From SAR116 cluster bacterium AG-447-A06 (GTDB lineage: Bacteria > Pseudomonadota > Alphaproteobacteria > Puniceispirillales > Puniceispirillaceae): DNA of 49,188 nucleotides. The DNA is taken from contig QCPZ01000010.1 of NCBI GenBank assembly GCA_003212345.1, positions 1 through 49,188 of the forward strand. Reading direction: 5' to 3'. Numbering within the stretch: position 1 is the stretch's first letter; each line of letters starts with the position of its first letter. Shown piece after piece: positions 9,644 to 24,386 of the stretch. The position numbers were made by a program, and so were the translations under genes. Below the pieces are notes generated by a model that worked only from the letters and a program-made list of their open reading frames with translations, was not told the DNA's origin and searched no databases.

Positions 9644-9707
9644 GGTTACCAGCTATTCCACCTACGTACCTATTATATATGTGCTGTTACATAGATTAGG
9701 TGTGATT
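9644..9707 (+). repeat. interspersed repeat R1, copy A (core inverted relative to flank)
   Basis: It begins with the flank GGTTACCAGCTATT, followed by a 44-nt core bounded by the inverted ends CACCTA/TAGGTG. The core is AT-rich and, on the opposite strand, contains GTAACAGCACATATATAATA, exactly shared with copy B. Relative to the GGTTACC flank the core is in the opposite orientation from copies B and C. It lies 7 nt beyond the stop of the membrane-protein gene at 9714. Confidence 0.8.
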
Positions 9708-10722: not shown

Positions 10723-11793
10723 TTATGGGTAGAGAGGCGCGGTCAACTTTTGTCCTACAACCCTTATTCCACCCCGCTTACGACTGCCAATTTTAACTGA
10801 ACCATATCTCTCGCTGAAGATTGGTGGCAGTGGTCTTCCATTAGGTGAGACAATCCAGAGTCTTAACAAATGCCGCTTTCTTTCCTCGTCTGGCCAATCT
10901 TCAAAATCAGTTCGGTCATGTAGTATTTGATGATTATGTAAAATCTGAATGTCACCAGGTTTAAATTCCATGTGAAGGTTGATAGCAGAATCGTTTGCCA
11001 ATTGATCAAACATATTCAGCGCTTGAGTTTGTATTTCAGTCAGCGCAGGCACTGCTGGGAATCGACGTGCGGACTCTATATACCGACGAGTATAAAGCGT
11101 CGATAAACGGCCTCTGAACCAGTTAAATATCGGCATGCGGTAGTAACCGAGTTGTCCTGACGGAATTTCACCACGACGATCAGTTTCAATTGGCATAAAC
11201 AAAGCTTCTGCTAGGTCAGGTCGCTCCTTACACATTTCATTAAAAATAGTTACTGAGGAGACAATGCTGGATAGGCCACCTGACTTTGCCGTCTTCAAAC
11301 ATAAAAGAAAAACTAGATCGCAACTATCGGTGTGATAAGTTTGGCGCACATTAGTTTGATAAATTCTTACGTTTGGATCTTTGTGATCAAGCCCAACATC
11401 CTTGATGTGTCCAATGACATGACCTTTAGCATTTTGTGGAAGCGTGTGACCAAAATGGGAGCCAATACCAGCATAGATGATTGCATTCTCTTCTATGTGA
11501 TATTGGTCTACGTCGAGGCCCCTTAGTAAGGTAAAACCTCTTCCCTCCAAAAGCTCTTTCTGAATTAAATCAAATTTTTTGGATAAATTTGGAAGAACAA
11601 AATCAGTTTTCTTTATGTCTTCTATCTTTATTTTTTTTTCTTTGACGCTCCTCATCGCAGCATCAAGTTCTAATTTTTCACTTTGAGAAAAAAACTTGAT
11701 CCAATCGGTTGAATCGAGCAAATCGCGCCCATACCACGCCGACTGTCCCGTAATCAGTTCCTTCGGCATGGATAAACTTTTATTTAGTGACAT
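10723..11793 (-). CDS. TauD/TfdA-family Fe(II)/2-oxoglutarate-dependent dioxygenase
   Basis: 356 residues. The facial triad is His154 and Asp156 in QTYHTDSCD and the distal His292 in ILHDR, with Arg307/Arg311 (RKRHLLRLW) able to hold 2-oxoglutarate. FKPGDIQILHNHQILHDR is typical of the TauD/gamma-butyrobetaine-hydroxylase branch. The reaction should be oxygen-dependent hydroxylation with decarboxylation of 2-oxoglutarate. The substrate is not deducible. No signal peptide. It is divergent from an MFS carrier 220 nt away, so the pair may serve uptake and oxidation of one compound (inference). Repeat R3 lies between them. Confidence 0.88.
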   Translation of the reverse strand: MSLNKSLSMPKELITGQSAWYGRDLLDSTDWIKFFSQSEKLELDAAMRSVKEKKIKIEDIKKTDFVLPNLSKKFDLIQKELLEGRGFTLLRGLDVDQYHIEENAIIYAGIGSHFGHTLPQNAKGHVIGHIKDVGLDHKDPNVRIYQTNVRQTYHTDSCDLVFLLCLKTAKSGGLSSIVSSVTIFNEMCKERPDLAEALFMPIETDRRGEIPSGQLGYYRMPIFNWFRGRLSTLYTRRYIESARRFPAVPALTEIQTQALNMFDQLANDSAINLHMEFKPGDIQILHNHQILHDRTDFEDWPDEERKRHLLRLWIVSPNGRPLPPIFSERYGSVKIGSRKRGGIRVVGQKLTAPLYP

Positions 11794-14332: not shown

Positions 14333-14354
14333 TAAAAAATAAGTTTAATAAAAT

Positions 14355-14416
14355 GGTTACCAGCTATTTCACCTAATCGGTGTAACAGCACATATATAAT
14401 AAGTACTAAGGTGGGT
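14355..14416 (+). repeat. interspersed repeat R1, copy B
   Basis: It consists of flank GGTTACCAGCTATTT, then a 44-nt core bounded by CACCT/AGGTG containing GTAACAGCACATATATAATA. It ends in GGTGGGT directly before the ATG of the next gene, so the repeat appears to supply that gene's ribosome binding region (AAGGTGGG). Confidence 0.8.
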
Positions 14417-14785
14417 ATGAAAAGCTTCTTTATCAAATTTAATGTTATGTGGCTCGGTGGCCTTTTCTTTCTCATGCTCTTTCTTTCGGCGATACAACAC
14501 AGTGCGCGGTTTTCGCCGAGCGACTCGCTAATGTGGTCCACAAAATATCTGGACGGTATCTTGGTCGGTGTCGTGATGATGGGGTTGCTGTTGCTTGCAA
14601 TGCTTAGCTGGTGCTGCGCGCTCTGGAGAAGCTGGAAGTTAACCAAATCTGATAGGTTGTTTAGCACACAGAGGTTGGCCGTGTTTGGCTACCTTTTAGG
14701 AGCGCCGATATTTTTGAAATTCACTGGGATTTATTGGCTGTCAGCAATGCGGGTTTTTACTGATAGATTGGTTCATGTAATCTGA
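14417..14785 (+). CDS. small membrane protein, unknown function
   Basis: 122 residues. Three hydrophobic segments are visible at residues about 8-25, 45-70 and 90-108, separated by basic or polar loops (LWRSWKLTKSDRLFSTQR). The ATG at 14417 is preferred over a GTG at 14411 because AAGGTGG lies at the right distance. The ribosome binding site is the tail of repeat R1. No recognised family. Confidence 0.6.
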   Translation: MKSFFIKFNVMWLGGLFFLMLFLSAIQHSARFSPSDSLMWSTKYLDGILVGVVMMGLLLLAMLSWCCALWRSWKLTKSDRLFSTQRLAVFGYLLGAPIFLKFTGIYWLSAMRVFTDRLVHVI

Positions 14786-17232: not shown

Positions 17233-18324
17233 TTAGCCACTCCAAATTGAAGAAGGAATATAAATTAGGCCGGAACTTAATTTCCTTGTGGTTCTTAATA
17301 TTTGAGCGAATCTAACAACAGAATGTACTCCATTGTTTTGGTAATCTAACCTGACATTCATAAATCCTAAGGGATGTTCAAGAAGAACGTCAGAGCCGTT
17401 TCCATTGAACTGGTCAACGAGACCATCTGTAACGGATCCAATTGTTAGCGCGCAAGCTGCAAGACACTGAGAAGAAGTAACTGCCAGAGTAGGGTGGGTT
17501 TGCCATGGCATAAAATATCTAACACACAATGATCCACCCTGTTTAGGGGGGGCAATTAACGCAAATTTAGGTGCAACAGAATCGCTTACATCACCAAGGC
17601 CCATAAGCTTTGCAGCTTGTAACCTGATCGACTCCATTCTGGCAAACAGTGGTTTATTTGAATCTAGTTTTTCACGTTCTTCATATCCACTGATGCCAAA
17701 ATCTGCCGCTCGACCGATCACTACTGGCATCGTTACGTCCATACATGTAACTTCAATGCCGTCTATAAGGTCTTTAAGATTTCCTGTTGGAAGAAACTTA
17801 CCTGTTTTGGAGCCTGTAATATCCATAAACTTTAACTCAACCGGTGCCGCCGTACCGGGCACCCCATCAATAGAGGCTTCACCTTCATAAACCAGATTCC
17901 CATTAGGTGTTTTAACTTTGGAAACAAATCGTCCGCCAGTATTCACTGCTCGGATTTTAATAATGGTTTCATCATTTTTTGCTTTTACAAGGCCCATTTC
18001 TATTGCAGCAGGGCCAACAGCTGAGAGCATGTTGCCGCATGTTGTTGTAAAATCCACCACTTTATTGAGCGCTTGCACTTGCACAAAAAAATAATCTATA
18101 TCCGCCCACTCATCGTTTGATTTTGATAGTATCGGGACTTTTGTCGTGACCGAATTCCCTGCACCAATGCCGTCTATGTTTAATTGATGCCCAGATCCAA
18201 CCGCAGCCATTAAAACTTTTCCCAAGGTTTCTTGATCTTGAGGTAAGTCTTTTTTGTTAAAGACCGGACCTTTTGAGGTTCCGCCCCGCATATGAAGGAA
18301 TGGTATCGCTGTTTGGTCTGCCAT
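17233..18324 (-). CDS. PrpF-family isomerase (2-methylaconitate isomerase / 4-oxalomesaconate tautomerase type)
   Basis: 363 residues, diaminopimelate-epimerase-like double fold. FLHMRGGTSKGPVF at the N-terminus, GIGAGNSVTTKV, TTCGNMLSAVGPAAIE with the catalytic Cys96, and a second-half Cys in LAACALTIG match the family. PrpF acts in the methylcitrate cycle, and GalD-type relatives tautomerise 4-oxalomesaconate in gallate and syringate degradation. The assignment between these is not possible from sequence alone. It is divergent from the lyase at 18632 across 307 nt. The two could serve one pathway. Confidence 0.88.
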   Translation of the reverse strand: MADQTAIPFLHMRGGTSKGPVFNKKDLPQDQETLGKVLMAAVGSGHQLNIDGIGAGNSVTTKVPILSKSNDEWADIDYFFVQVQALNKVVDFTTTCGNMLSAVGPAAIEMGLVKAKNDETIIKIRAVNTGGRFVSKVKTPNGNLVYEGEASIDGVPGTAAPVELKFMDITGSKTGKFLPTGNLKDLIDGIEVTCMDVTMPVVIGRAADFGISGYEEREKLDSNKPLFARMESIRLQAAKLMGLGDVSDSVAPKFALIAPPKQGGSLCVRYFMPWQTHPTLAVTSSQCLAACALTIGSVTDGLVDQFNGNGSDVLLEHPLGFMNVRLDYQNNGVHSVVRFAQILRTTRKLSSGLIYIPSSIWSG

Positions 18325-18631: not shown

Positions 18632-19495
18632 GTGGAAAAAAAAAATATATCAATTGCAGAAATTCTTGAGGGGCGTCATGCAACACTTGTTCCGGGTGCC
18701 CCAAACGCTCTTTTTGCGCGAATTATTGAAGATTTAGGCTTTGAAGCAATTTACGTAACCGGGGCCGGTATTGCTAATATGCAACTTGGTGCACCTGACA
18801 TTGGGCTTACTACTCTCAATGAAATTGCTCATAACGTGACATGCATAGCCGAAGCTGTCCAAATTCCCCTAGTTGTCGACGCCGACACAGGTTTTGGTAA
18901 TACCCAAAATTGCTACCGATCAATACGACTTCTTGAGAGATCGGGGGCTTCTGCTATTCAGCTTGAAGATCAGGTGTTTCCAAAAAAATGCGGTCATTTT
19001 TCTAATAAAGCTATTGTGCCCACTGTCGAAATGGTAAACAAAATAAAGGCCGCTGTTGATGCTCGTCTGGACCCAGAGATAAAAATCATAGCGCGCACTG
19101 ATGCGCGTGGTATCAGCGACATTAATGAAGCGCTTGATCGCGCAGCTGCCTTTGTTGAGGCCGGAGCGGATGCAACCTTTGTTGAAGCTCCAAAAAATCT
19201 GGCTGAACTCAAAGCCATCCCTTCGAGCATTCAAGCCCCTCAAGTTGCAAATATGGTTTTTGGAGGTCTGACACCTGAGCCAGGGCGGGAAGCTCTTGCG
19301 TCAATGGGTTATTCAATTGTTCTTTATGCGAATGCAGCGCTGCAAACAGCAATTCATGCTGTAGAAATAACTTTGTCGAGTCTCCGTGATACAGGGTCAC
19401 TTGCTGAGTGTTCGGATCTTCTAGCGAGTTTTGACAAGCGACAAGCTGTTGTTCAAAAGGAAAAATGGGATGAATTTGAACGTAAGCACAATTGA
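18632..19495 (+). CDS. isocitrate lyase/PEP mutase superfamily lyase
   Basis: 287 residues from GTG 18632. TIM-barrel signature motifs: GAGIANMQLG, VVDADTGFGN (Asp83, Asp85), QLEDQVFPKKCGH (Glu112, Asp113, Cys120) and IIARTDARG. The KKCGH loop with its cysteine is typical of C-C lyases such as 2-methylisocitrate lyase, oxaloacetate hydrolase or 2,3-dimethylmalate lyase. PEP mutases differ at this loop. Which acid is cleaved is not decidable here. Together with the PrpF-like gene it could resemble a methylcitrate-type branch, but prpC and prpD are absent from the window. Confidence 0.88.
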   Translation: MEKKNISIAEILEGRHATLVPGAPNALFARIIEDLGFEAIYVTGAGIANMQLGAPDIGLTTLNEIAHNVTCIAEAVQIPLVVDADTGFGNTQNCYRSIRLLERSGASAIQLEDQVFPKKCGHFSNKAIVPTVEMVNKIKAAVDARLDPEIKIIARTDARGISDINEALDRAAAFVEAGADATFVEAPKNLAELKAIPSSIQAPQVANMVFGGLTPEPGREALASMGYSIVLYANAALQTAIHAVEITLSSLRDTGSLAECSDLLASFDKRQAVVQKEKWDEFERKHN

Positions 19496-19531: not shown

Positions 19532-19612
19532 CCGCCAACCAATCAAACACCGGTCTGAGACGCAAGCCCATGCCCTCTAGGACCCATGTCCTTTAATCAA
19601 GGCCAAAGCTGA
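19532..19612 (+). repeat. interspersed repeat R3, copy 2
   Basis: Matches 11842-11938 (CCGCCAACCAATCAA, GAGACGCAAG, CAAAGCTGA) with a few indels. It lies between two convergent genes, unlike copy 1, which is in a divergent promoter. So its position is not tied to one transcriptional context. Confidence 0.7.
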
Positions 19613-19634
19613 TTGAGAAACAGTCACAGTAACC

Positions 19635-19650
19635 CCGTCTTTTTAGACGG
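19635..19650 (-). terminator. possible terminator hairpin at the end of the cyclase gene
   Basis: A perfect 6-bp stem CCGTCT/AGACGG with a 4-nt loop. The stop codon of the cyclase gene overlaps the loop. There is no T-run after it, so its termination activity is uncertain. Confidence 0.35.
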
Positions 19651-20680
19651 TAGCCACTGGCGTGACGGGAGAGCCAACCGCGCCAGTAAGCCGTAGAGGA
19701 GGCGCTGTTAAAAAAAACCGATTTCTTCCATTAACCAAGAGCCATTTTGCTAATTCTTCCAAGTACCACAACTCTCCTAGTGGTAATCCCAGTTTGAAAA
19801 GACATTTATTATGAATTGGCAATCGTGGGCCTTTGTAATTTGATGATCTTTCTATGCGAGCATCTTCTATGGCATAGTTATCAGAGATCAATGCAGATAT
19901 TTGACTGCTCTCAATCCAATCTAAAAGTTTAGGGTCATCCCCGTCGAGAACGGCGCAAGAACTGTGTAATTTTTCTGCATTAGGTTTTAATTCCATCCTG
20001 TAAAGCATAGTCGACCAGCCTGTATGAAGAACGAGCATGTCACCCGGCTCAATAACAACGTCGTCTTTTCTTATTACGCGCTCTAAATCTTCGAAGCCAA
20101 CAAACTTACGTTCTTCACCAAAATGCTTTTGAAGGTCAATTAGAACACCGCGGCCTTGAACGCATGTCGCCGCCATATTCTCAATACCCAATCGTTCAGC
20201 CTTAACAGATCCGTTTTGCTCCGAACTCGCAAAATCTGACGGACCTTTAATATGCTCTCCACCCCTCCAGCCGTTGTAATAGACTATCTCTTCAATCCCA
20301 TCTCCATCTGCATCAAACAAGGCTCCTGCATGTCCCAGGCTGTCCCACTGTGTCGAATATTGTGTGTGCAATAAGACGCTGTCATCTGACGATACATCCT
20401 CAAAGCCGGCATAATAATCTCGCCAACTTAGGTTGTAATAATGGCTATTGTCTGAGTGAAGAGTTGGTCTTAAGACAGGTGGAAACCGCTTCGGGTTAAC
20501 AGAATTTCCTCCCGGATAATCGAGAGGCAAGCTCAAGCAAAAGCTGATCCCTGCCTTAACTTCTTTGACCGCCTCTAGCCGTCGCTCAGGCGTTAACAAA
20601 TTAATCCGTCCAACTTGATCATCAGGACCAAAATCACCCCAATTTGATCCGTGTGGCCGGTTCTTCCACCTCTTGTTCAT
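19643..20680 (-). CDS. cyclase/kynurenine-formamidase-like family hydrolase
   Basis: 345 residues from ATG 20680, which has the AGGAG site inside the end of the upstream gene. The metal-binding elements HTQYSTQWDSLGH and LVLHTGWS are those of the cyclase family (kynurenine formamidase, isatin hydrolase and relatives), which usually hydrolyse cyclic or amide bonds with a divalent metal. GGEHIKGP and the C-terminal IHNKCLFKLGLPLGE are also conserved in this longer branch. The stop of the UGSC-like gene is 2 nt upstream, so the pair is translationally coupled and likely acts in one pathway. Confidence 0.85.
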   Translation of the reverse strand: MNKRWKNRPHGSNWGDFGPDDQVGRINLLTPERRLEAVKEVKAGISFCLSLPLDYPGGNSVNPKRFPPVLRPTLHSDNSHYYNLSWRDYYAGFEDVSSDDSVLLHTQYSTQWDSLGHAGALFDADGDGIEEIVYYNGWRGGEHIKGPSDFASSEQNGSVKAERLGIENMAATCVQGRGVLIDLQKHFGEERKFVGFEDLERVIRKDDVVIEPGDMLVLHTGWSTMLYRMELKPNAEKLHSSCAVLDGDDPKLLDWIESSQISALISDNYAIEDARIERSSNYKGPRLPIHNKCLFKLGLPLGELWYLEELAKWLLVNGRNRFFLTAPPLRLTGAVGSPVTPVATV

Positions 20681-20682
20681 CG

Positions 20683-22326
20683 TTAAGCTCCTAATTCGAC
20701 AGCATGTGAAACTGGAATTGAACCACCAAATGAGGGCATAAACGTTGAGTGAAGGCTTGCCCCACCCGCAACGCATATCAAAAAGCCGTCTGCGTTCTTG
20801 GTCATTGGTACATCACTATCTGGGGTTAGCATCCCCAAATCCGCAAGTCTTGGAGTTCTCATCATTTCCCGGTTTTTTGGTGCAAACTCTGAAAACTTAA
20901 GTTTTGTCATTTCAAACAAGGATTTTTTTACTTCTTGAATACCAATTTTTTCACTCTCAAAAATTTGAGCGTGTTCCGGGCAAAGCACCAAAAGTGGTGA
21001 TCCGCCAAACATATAATCGTTGCTGCCCACACTTCTGATACTTTTTGCGATCATTTCTATCAACTCTTGTGCGGAGGTGGCTTTGATTATCATGTTCGCC
21101 GTTCCTGTAACCCCAACCAAAGTCACCGCATCATGGTTGGTGCCTAAAGCATTTTTGGTTTGGGACCTCAGTGGCGGCCAGTGAACAACACCCTCAAGCT
21201 CAGCAAAACAAAAGGTATACTTACCCGGTTGGCCAATTGTTGCGGGATCAATACCACTTTCCGCGCTGGCGCCACCAATATTTCGCATACATAGTTTAAG
21301 TGTTCTTCCAAGTGATGCATTATTCACATTGCCACTACCCAACGCCCCCAACTTGTTGTTAAACCCGTTTTTTTCGGTAGAGGGCCCCCCAACAACTATT
21401 ACTGGGGTAACGGGATTTGTTGTTGTCTGAAGGTTAAAAACTTGGAAATTAGGATTACATAACGCATGCGTCACCGCAGCAGCATATGGTGCAATATTGG
21501 GCGGCATCCCAGTCATTACGGCATTTGCGGCGATGACAGTTGGTGTAGCTAAACCATTTCTCGGTGGCACAACAGGCGTGCTATCATGAGGAAGTGAGGT
21601 TGGCCAAAAATCTAGAATTTTATTTACTCGCTCTTTTGTTGGTAAAAAAACTGGAAGGCCATCAGATAAACCAAGCTCCTGCATCAACCCTGAGGTTCTA
21701 TAATCAAAGTCAACTTCCTTCACTTCGGTTAAGCATTGAGCAAGTTTCAAAAGATCTTGAGCCGAAGATACCGTGCCTTGACTGTGATCAACGCTAGCCC
21801 CCGACCCGTCTGAAAGCAGTAATTTTAAGTCAGGAAAAGTGCGCTGTGCAAGATCACTCGTTTGAGTGGATGTTAGTGATGAGAGTGGGTGAGGTATTAC
21901 CAACACCTGCACTCCATCGCAACTCTCGGGTAATGAGATCTTCGCTAAACCAACAAACGCATCCGTGCAAAGCATTATAGTTGGAACACCAATATTGGCT
22001 AGCGCTGCAGCATCGATTGCGCCTTGAGAGGCGGCCGTGCCACCATCGCAAACGCCCACAATTACTATATCTGTATTTTCTTTGAATTTCTGGTAACGTT
22101 CAAAGCCACCTCTCGACATCGGGCCTTCTTTCATCAGAGTTAAGGTGTCAACTGCTCCCTCATCCAAAGTCCGCTCAGCCCATTTGCTGAAGAATCTCTC
22201 AACATTAGACTTACCGTTTCCAAAAAAACCAACTCTTTGCCCCACAAATCCATTAGGCCATTTTATCTCTGCACTACTAGCTTCAATTCCAGCTTTCTCC
22301 CCACGAGGGTCTACAATATCGATCAA
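20683..22326 (-). CDS. two-domain UGSC-like protein without the Sec/Cys motif
   Basis: 547 residues. The N-terminal part (about 30-170) looks like the UGSC domain: RVGFFGNGKSNVERFF, VIVGVCDGGTAAS, ANIGVPTIMLCTDAF. In the named family the loop after the Asp is U-G-S-C or C-G-S-C. Here it is CDGGTAAS (residues 93-100), so the redox-active Sec/Cys pair is missing, although a cysteine precedes the Asp. The remaining 350 residues form a second domain (PPNIAPYAAAVTHALCNP, VIVVGGPS, MFGGSPLLVLCPEHAQ) that I do not recognise. It is coupled to the cyclase gene. Function unknown. UGSC assignment moderately sure. Confidence 0.7.
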   Translation of the reverse strand: MIDIVDPRGEKAGIEASSAEIKWPNGFVGQRVGFFGNGKSNVERFFSKWAERTLDEGAVDTLTLMKEGPMSRGGFERYQKFKENTDIVIVGVCDGGTAASQGAIDAAALANIGVPTIMLCTDAFVGLAKISLPESCDGVQVLVIPHPLSSLTSTQTSDLAQRTFPDLKLLLSDGSGASVDHSQGTVSSAQDLLKLAQCLTEVKEVDFDYRTSGLMQELGLSDGLPVFLPTKERVNKILDFWPTSLPHDSTPVVPPRNGLATPTVIAANAVMTGMPPNIAPYAAAVTHALCNPNFQVFNLQTTTNPVTPVIVVGGPSTEKNGFNNKLGALGSGNVNNASLGRTLKLCMRNIGGASAESGIDPATIGQPGKYTFCFAELEGVVHWPPLRSQTKNALGTNHDAVTLVGVTGTANMIIKATSAQELIEMIAKSIRSVGSNDYMFGGSPLLVLCPEHAQIFESEKIGIQEVKKSLFEMTKLKFSEFAPKNREMMRTPRLADLGMLTPDSDVPMTKNADGFLICVAGGASLHSTFMPSFGGSIPVSHAVELGA

Positions 22327-22463
22327 GCCTATGCTCCTTTAGTCAAATTTCTTTGGCGGTTTGCGCAAGTTTCAAAAAACAAGAAAACGCCATCAGTCTT
22401 TGCAGTGCAGAGTGGAAAATACATATAGATGCCTCGATAAATACAAAGAAGGGTAGGGAGAAA

Positions 22464-22534
22464 ACATACCCACCCACGTACCTACTATATTAAGTGCTGT
22501 CACATAAATTAGGTGTGATAGCTATTAACCAGCT
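22464..22534 (-). repeat. interspersed repeat R1, copy C
   Basis: On the minus strand it reads GGTTAATAGCTAT then a CACCTAAT-start core with GTGACAGCAC and a GGTACGTGGGTGGGTATG end, the same arrangement as copy B but more diverged. The GGTTAA at its edge provides the stop codon of the gene at 22525. Confidence 0.75.
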
Positions 22535-23492: not shown

Positions 23493-24386
23493 TTATCGGG
23501 GCCCTGTTTTACAGGGCCTCAGGCCATTATCAAAAATGTCCTGAAACCGTAAATTGCGACTGATGAGCCCCTGCCGTAATAGTGATCCAACAAGCTTTTC
23601 AACGGATTTTTGCATTTCGGCCTGACCGGCTGGCAGCATGCGCTGTTCATATTTGCTGAGCTGATGGCGCGCCGCTGAAAAACCCTGCATGATCATTTTT
23701 ACATCACTTTGCCGCTGTTCGAAAAATGGTCGCGAAACGGCAATAATATGATTGATCTGGATAATGCCAGTTGCTTCCAGACTGGTTTTACCAACCTTAT
23801 CTGGGTTTGCAATGATTGGTTTTGCCCAAGGTTCATCTGGCAAATCATTGCCAAAAATGGCGGCATCAACAACACCTTGTCTAATCAGATCCAAGGGTGA
23901 TGCGCCATTGGGATCACGCACAACAATAGATGGCTCAGGCGCCCCGGCAACATGCGGCGCTTCTTGTGTGATCCATTCAATCTTGGAGCAATCCACGCCA
24001 TATTCTGTGTCTAGAATTGTTCGCACCCATGCGCCAGTGGTCTGGCTGAAAGCACGAACGGCAACTCGTTTGCCTTCCAGATCAGAGGGTGTGAAATTGG
24101 TAAATTCACCATTTTGAATGATACACTTATGCTGAACCCGAGCTGAGATAGTGATTGGAAGTGGCACAATATTTCGATTCTGCTCAACCGCCTGAATTGC
24201 GGTGACAATTGCTAGTTCACTTACATCAAACGCCATCTCTTCTACCATTGGCCGGAATACAAGGTGGATTGGCGTGACTGGCTGATGCACAAGATTTAGC
24301 TTGCTGGTTTCGTTTTTTAGAAACAGCACAGAAATTGGGGCCTTGCCGAGTGCAATCTTTATTTTTTCCATCTGTTTGGCCTTCAT
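23493..24386 (-). CDS. 4,5-dihydroxyphthalate-decarboxylase-like protein (NMT1/solute-binding fold)
   Basis: 297 residues, no signal peptide. FDVSELAIVTAIQA, LEGKRVAVRAFSQTTGAWVR and ILDTEYGVDCSKIEWIT resemble Pht5-type 4,5-dihydroxyphthalate decarboxylases, which are cytoplasmic enzymes built on the periplasmic-binding-protein fold (about 330 residues, so this one is slightly short). The absence of a signal peptide argues against a transport role. The alternative is an orphan TauA-like binding protein. It may belong with the PrpF/lyase/cyclase genes 1-6 kb away (inference). Confidence 0.75.
   Translation of the reverse strand: MKAKQMEKIKIALGKAPISVLFLKNETSKLNLVHQPVTPIHLVFRPMVEEMAFDVSELAIVTAIQAVEQNRNIVPLPITISARVQHKCIIQNGEFTNFTPSDLEGKRVAVRAFSQTTGAWVRTILDTEYGVDCSKIEWITQEAPHVAGAPEPSIVVRDPNGASPLDLIRQGVVDAAIFGNDLPDEPWAKPIIANPDKVGKTSLEATGIIQINHIIAVSRPFFEQRQSDVKMIMQGFSAARHQLSKYEQRMLPAGQAEMQKSVEKLVGSLLRQGLISRNLRFQDIFDNGLRPCKTGPR

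Follow-up and report, generated by a model that had tools for sequence, protein, structure and literature searches.

A fused UGSC protein without its selenocysteine redox centre, coupled to a cyclase-family gene in a SAR116 bacterium

Few selenoproteins of marine origin are as abundant as those of the UGSC family, which has 255 members in the GOS set, and the fusion of UGSC to a second domain, 'Unknown_1', was reported in the GOS selenoproteome in 2008 (Zhang and Gladyshev, PMC2398784). No function is given to UGSC proteins in the passages that treat them in three papers, PMC2398784 among them. The Sec subunits GrdB of glycine reductase and PrdB of D-proline reductase (PF07355), which carry Sec or Cys at the catalytic position, are further described proteins with which the present one is compared.

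The protein described here is encoded in a stretch of 49,188 nucleotides (the window) on contig QCPZ01000010.1 of SAR116 cluster bacterium AG-447-A06, whose genome assembly comprises 2.0 Mb in 69 contigs and is 80% complete. In this protein a UGSC domain is joined to another conserved domain, which is named CD here and covers about residues 217-536. The nearest named relative is the SAR116 alphaproteobacterium AG-390-P06 (locus L008), which, judged by contig, position, and sequence, appears to be the genus mate G006.

The fused gene and its redox loop

The 547-codon open reading frame that the first-pass annotation had pointed out is real and lies on the minus strand, as seen in the ORF listing and the translation, and it encodes the fused protein of 547 residues (Table 1). 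Its TTG start codon at 22326 is preceded by an AAAGGAG stretch, and its stop codon occupies 20683-20685. The cyclase gene starts at 20680, 2 nt past this stop; the listed cyclase ORF start at 20776 is an ATG upstream of the actual one. The AGGAG, the stop codon of the fusion, and the ATG of the cyclase all lie within 15 nt in both the window and L008, and the junction AGGAGCTTAACGATG is common to the two, which agrees with the earlier claim of a coupling across 2 nt.

The copy in L008 is full length and 88% identical to the window protein, with 63 of 547 residues differing. As this identity comes with a dN/dS of 0.16, the fusion gene is more than a chance reading frame. Resolved by part, dN/dS is 0.201 for the UGSC domain (UG), 0.133 for the CD, and 0.120 for the cyclase; together with the value of 0.164 for the whole fusion, the ratios of the two domains speak against free decay.

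Table 1. Position and basis of the features of the fusion and of the gene coupled to it (window coordinates)
Feature	Position	Strand	Basis
Fused UGSC-CD protein, 547 aa, TTG start	20683..22326	-	ORF and translation; 88% identical full-length L008 copy; dN/dS 0.164
UGSC domain (PF24696), predicted Rossmann-like alpha/beta	21814..22320	-	HMM match and structure model
CDGGTAAS, the redox loop of old (residues 93-100), with Gly95 for Sec, Thr97 for Ser, and Ala98 for Cys	22027..22050	-	Family alignment
CD partner domain, outside Pfam and NCBIfam, adjoining UGSC genes elsewhere	20728..21675	-	Profile searches
Met274 codon ATG, Cys in 101 of 106 CD rows (NAVMAGC motif)	21505..21507	-	Alignment
Coupled junction ATTAGGAGCTTAACGATGAA: ribosome-binding-like AGGAG, stop TAA, 2-nt gap, ATG	20676..20695	-	Sequence; same in L008
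Cyclase-family protein (PF04199), 345 aa, QYSTQWDSLGH at the metal site of the family	19643..20680	-	Pfam; dN/dS 0.120

The protein had been called UGSC-like, and the HMM search proposed as a check on this came out positive: residues 3-171 match PF24696 at E 2.1e-21 (77.2 bits against a gathering cut-off of 25), over model positions 1-170 of 172. The NCBIfam equivalog for UGSC, NF041046, scores 61.9 bits, below its cut-off of 125. An alignment of UGSC domains was made from the window, L005, and L008-L087 (84 rows, 82 of them with letters at the motif). The motif holds Sec, encoded by an in-frame TGA, in 76 of the 82 rows, Cys in four, and neither in two; these two are the window and L008, which both read DGGTA in place of the U/C-G-S-C redox motif. 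In the ordinary Cys versions, the Cys stands at the Sec position (DCGSC, three rows).

The loop CDGGTAAS was found at residues 93-100, and the description of the protein as one without Sec/Cys is correct for the redox positions, which are Gly95 and Ala98 in the family alignment; Cys93 is still in the loop. Against its UGSC relatives, the window protein has Gly95 (codon GGT in both the window and L008 genomes) for the Sec of DUGSC, Thr97 for the Ser, Ala98 for the partner Cys, and Ile104 for a conserved His. These are the four changes (U95G, S97T, C98A, and H104I) among the 14 UG columns that are conserved to at least 90%, the other ten being kept. On realignment five of the 14 columns are changed, with one Lys added, and the median of the other rows is 0; three Sec-type rows change eight of the 14, yet they keep U and C. 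Residues 81-106, which include the loop, are identical in the window and L008. The one Cys left in the loop, Cys93, sits two residues before the Sec position and is present in the window, L008, and the Sec-type proteins L011, L013, and L018; since it also occurs in these Sec-type proteins, it is not obviously a shifted catalytic residue.

No match to SelA was found in the two genomes that carry the fusion, i.e. those of the window (80% complete) and G006 (72% complete); SelA is present in two of the 16 genus genomes (G010 and G014). The best SelB-like match in the window genome is below the cut-off. Because both fusion-carrying genomes are incomplete, the absence of SelA or of Sec paralogues is weak evidence. 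On contig G014:C37 (L005/L089), a Sec-type CD-UGSC pair lies about 170 nt from selA and has a CoA-transferase-like gene upstream, which makes up a compact selenoprotein cassette.

The CD domain and the ordinary UGSC-CD pair

The remainder of the protein had been described as an unknown domain. This description stands as far as sequence databases are concerned: residues after about 172 have no Pfam or NCBIfam match at E up to 1, the CD alone has only chance-level matches in Pfam, and PDB sequences give no significant match past the UGSC domain (best E 0.27 and 0.16). However, the CD is not an arbitrary addition. It is a regular partner of UGSC, as a separate neighbouring gene or fused to it, in several phyla.

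A scan of reference genomes with the window protein gave 402 relatives, and 80 loci were kept. The UGSC domain is also present in the fetched DNA of 77 of these (the exceptions being L022, L065, and L082), in the arrangements CD then UGSC, UGSC then CD, and UGSC-CD-CD, and as fusions. Since the 80 loci had been picked for likeness to the window protein, the link was tested in two samples drawn regardless of such likeness. Among 398 Pseudomonadota genomes, the CD is found in five and UGSC in the same five, always adjacent; without the window's own genome, the counts are four and four of 397. The second sample comprised 396 genomes from the actinobacterial phylum to which the Yinghuangia genome of L019 belongs. 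Here the CD occurs in 29 genomes and UGSC over the cut-off in 27, all of which are within the 29. For 41 of the 45 UGSC copies over the cut-off, there is a CD no more than 1 kb away, and for the other four there is none so close; 34 of the 45 contain an in-frame TGA. The CD-only cases are G841, with a fragment of 34 positions, and G673, in which four CD matches lie on one contig (L117, G673:C272) of a genome without a UGSC match, a rare UGSC-free CD set. On a haloarchaeal plasmid, UGSC is located between two CD genes, both annotated as 'hypothetical', and a second such plasmid is among the matches listed.

Five loci (L016, L015, L023, L036, and L076) have UGSC followed by two or three CD domains in tandem. 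Since most of the second CDs form a branch of their own in the CD tree, a role as hetero-oligomeric partner is suggested for them.

The window protein matches the CD profile, of which it is itself one row, at 3.9e-107. It keeps 39 of the 51 conserved CD columns. The polar residues D222, N323, R341, K369, and E376 are kept, as is Cys373 of the motif KYTFCFAE, which is conserved in 102 of 106 CD rows. Among the 12 changed columns is Cys274 of NAVMAGC, which is Met in both the window and L008. As a control, the Sec-type fusion L009 changes two of the 51 columns, and the median row one. Nevertheless, five CDs from four Sec-type loci (L077, L027 twice, L067, and L017) change 11-14 of 50-51 conserved columns, and therefore divergence of the CD alone proves nothing. 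The telling point is the joint change at redox positions: the sequence shows other residues in place of the Sec, the resolving Cys, the conserved His, and the nearly invariant CD Cys, whereas the majority of the remaining conserved positions are retained, and the two domains are still under purifying selection.

Fold searches with the CD model gave no confident match. In the Foldseek search of the PDB, ranks 1-17 are class I Fe-S fumarate hydratases, the best being 7xky_A at E 9.2e-4, which is a weak structural ranking only.

The UGSC domain was also compared with a profile of the GRDB/PrdB-like Sec domain, built from 11 sequences whose source genomes had mainly been selected because they carry UGSC-CD loci. 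The hhalign probability is 92.4% (E 5.2e-7 for a single comparison) over 105 columns, with the UxxC motifs in register; the other comparisons give 0.7% for CD-GRDB, 0.6% for UGSC-GrdE, 0.1% for CD-GrdE, and 6% for GRDB-GrdE. PF07355 has no match in the window protein (E up to 1) or in any of 28 UG rows (E up to 10). As the Pfam GRDB model fails to match the UGSC rows, the relationship is one of distant similarity and not of membership, and the window protein has Gly95 where GrdB and PrdB have their catalytic Sec or Cys. In a set of 36 genomes, selected mainly because of their UGSC-CD loci, 22 have a GRDB/PrdB-like match over the cut-off, often as several short matches, and in the 12 loci that were read (L126-L137) the match stops just before an in-frame TGA.

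Among the 103 ORFs near 36 UGSC-CD modules, five match TIGR01292, a model for thioredoxin reductase, with E values no higher than 1e-10, and six match Pyr_redox_2. A trxB gene is found near the CD-UGSC pair on two plasmids, those of Variovorax SRS16 and Roseovarius THAF8, the pair of the latter (L125) being of the CGSC type. CoA-transferases, TRAP and tripartite transporters, and ABC binding proteins also recur near UGSC-CD loci. Since UGSC resembles the GRDB Sec domain and trxB-like genes recur nearby, we infer that the ordinary UGSC-CD pair is probably a selenoreductase working on the GrdB/PrdB pattern, with small organic acids as substrates and a thioredoxin-reductase-like flavoprotein to feed it. 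In such an enzyme, the selenol would attack a small organic substrate held by the CD, the cysteine of UxxC would resolve the product of this attack, and the flavoprotein would give the electrons.

Fusions with a similarly altered loop occur at two further loci. L010 has a fused, Cys-only copy that reads DCGTSTS, beside a Sec-type CD-UGSC pair, and L114, from a distant genome of the actinobacterial sample, encodes a 573-aa fusion without Sec/Cys that has the loop DMGTSSA and keeps MAGC (PF24696 score 26.8, just above the cut-off of 25); near L114 there is no gene related to the window cyclase. In the window protein, L010, and L114 alike, Thr replaces the Ser of the loop and the conserved His is lost. 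In the CD tree (drawn open), the window and L008 group with L010, L009, and L024 (SH-aLRT 86), and L114 is placed elsewhere on a long branch. A single clade of the window, L008, L010, and L114 is not rejected (p-AU 0.201); the DxGT-loop fusions may have one origin or two.

The cyclase and the gene neighbourhood

The gene coupled to the fusion scores above the cut-off for PF04199 (E 3.7e-12, 47.1 bits against 23.1), which we take to be the kynurenine-formamidase-like cyclase family. Its motif QYSTQWDSLGH resembles the QYSTQWDxxxH of L142-L145 in a six-gene sample, and the cyclase is therefore probably active.

The pairing with this cyclase, which the first-pass annotation had stressed, is partly supported. 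The coupling is tight, and the two genes are together in L008 amid different DNA; however, co-occurrence has been seen in the genus alone, where the fusion and the cyclase are found together in the same two of 16 genomes and in no other of the 16. No relative of the window cyclase was found near 79 further loci. The link between fusion and cyclase is thus narrow and includes the window and L008 only. When the window and L008 are compared by blastn, the sole matching block is 19558-22406, which contains the fusion and the cyclase, at 89% DNA identity. The flanks of L008 contain a TauD-like gene and genes that, by the appearance of their sequences, would encode ABC transporters of the branched-chain type. 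Since the TauD-like protein is 46% identical to the protein encoded at 10723-11793 of the window, the two neighbourhoods may be further related at the protein level.

Beside the cassette in the window lies a gene of the PEP-mutase/methylisocitrate-lyase family (18632-19495, plus strand), and a 4-oxalomesaconate tautomerase gene is found at 17233-18324 on the minus strand (NF033377, 446 bits against a cut-off of 440). On a plasmid of Acidovorax T1, a Sec-type fusion (32% identity over 505 aa) adjoins a PEP-mutase-family gene 34% identical to that of the window. Upstream of the fusion, 23493-24386 (minus strand) encodes an NMT1-like protein that scores below the Pfam cut-off, possibly a binding protein or a 4,5-dihydroxyphthalate-decarboxylase-like enzyme.

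The genus mate G014 has a reduced form of the cassette. At L003 (G014:C68, 1459-1758), UGSC residues 1-72 are continued by the PEP-mutase gene, and the two overlap by 10 nt where they join. The breakpoints correspond to window positions 18806 and 22115, so that about 3.3 kb are gone, namely the cyclase with most of the fusion and a portion of the PEP-mutase gene; this could be a real deletion or an assembly artefact. Intergenic pieces of 49-66 nt at L003 1295-1360 match the window at 9658-9705 and 14354-14418, and may be copies of an intergenic repeat. When window 22456-22482 (27 nt) was searched alone, it was found once only.

Possible function and comparison with known systems

Since the Sec site has been lost and the gene is still kept by selection next to a cyclase gene, a different job for the window protein is probable. 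The account that we modestly favour is that of a selenoreductase relative which has turned into a non-redox enzyme, using the old substrate pocket and working with the cyclase. With the redox centre removed, the pocket at the UGSC/CD interface would be used without redox chemistry, most likely for acid-base chemistry such as the hydration, elimination, or isomerisation of a small carboxylate, and this reaction would feed or follow ring opening by the cyclase, a putative metal-hydrolase. The exact pair of fusion and cyclase genes is found in two genomes only. A wider proposal is more tentative, although worth stating: UGSC and the CD together may constitute an undescribed third family of GrdB/PrdB-type selenoreductases, whose DxGT fused branch (DGGTA in the window and L008, DMGTS in L114, DCGTS in L010) gave up the full redox centre to become a non-redox enzyme that reuses the substrate pocket, in SAR116 in tandem with a cyclase-family hydrolase.

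The same changes can be read differently. With the redox-linked Sec, Cys, His, and CD Cys all altered, the fusion might have no catalysis of its own and serve as a scaffold or a ligand-sensing regulatory subunit of the cyclase; the stop-start coupling, the shared location beside the cyclase in two different surroundings, and the retention by the cyclase of the motif QYSTQWDxxxH also seen in L142-L145 are in line with such a pseudoenzyme. The large CD, however, keeps 39 of 51 conserved columns, polar residues included, which is more than a scaffold seems to need, and this possibility is rather unlikely. Thiol chemistry could still take place because Cys93 and Cys373 remain, and either or both might have replaced the Sec: the former is shared with L008 and three Sec-type proteins, and the latter is conserved in nearly all CD rows and kept. 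Yet Cys93 misses the catalytic position by two residues, the resolving Cys is absent from its usual site, and so is the conserved His; ordinary Cys versions place their Cys at the Sec position itself, so that a thiol redox enzyme is considered improbable.

Two further accounts have little in their favour. A selenoprotein gene decaying after loss of the Sec machinery would fit the lack of a SelA match in the fusion-carrying genomes, the truncated remnant joined to the PEP-mutase gene in G014, and the long branch in the CD tree. The selection test largely refutes it, as the 547-codon frame is intact in two genomes at a dN/dS of 0.16 (0.20 for UG); in addition, the loop region is identical between them, and the G014 junction with its 10-nt overlap could be an assembly artefact. 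Decay is hence highly improbable. It is just as hard to credit that the fusion works only as the inactive member of a hetero-oligomer, alongside a redox-active UGSC-CD pair encoded at another site in the genome: L010 does have its fused DCGTSTS copy beside a Sec-type pair, but only one UGSC match is present in the window genome (80% complete) and one in G626, the genome of L114.

With a regular partner domain outside Pfam, a distant tie to GrdB/PrdB, and recurring trxB-like neighbours, an orphan selenoprotein becomes testable as a two-subunit reductase. The window protein adds to this a natural version in which Sec, Cys, and the partner Cys are replaced and which is nonetheless selected, a ready-made control for separating substrate binding from redox chemistry.

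Class I fumarate hydratases have three Fe-S cysteines. For the CD there is the weak structural ranking given above, no Pfam match, and two conserved Cys columns that were checked. The coupled cyclase belongs to PF04199; the classical motif of that family, HTGTHFDAPVH, is seen in L146, whereas the window cyclase has QYSTQWDxxxH. Like the GOS fusions to 'Unknown_1' (PMC2398784), the window protein has UGSC fused to a second conserved domain; unlike them, it is not a selenoprotein, and 'Unknown_1' may or may not be the CD. A thioredoxin-like fold is proposed for UGSC in PMC2398784; the present model resembles Rossmann-like folds. With the UGSC family (PF24696, NF041046), the window protein shares domain homology and ten of 14 conserved columns, and it differs in its replaced Sec, Cys, and His, its sub-cut-off NF041046 score, and its fusion to the CD. 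From GrdB and PrdB it is set apart by a CD unlike the GrdE profile, a UGSC domain without a PF07355 match, and the missing Sec; nevertheless, their Sec domain is distantly similar to UGSC, UxxC on UxxC, and ordinary UGSC proteins share with them a regular partner and sometimes trxB-like neighbours.
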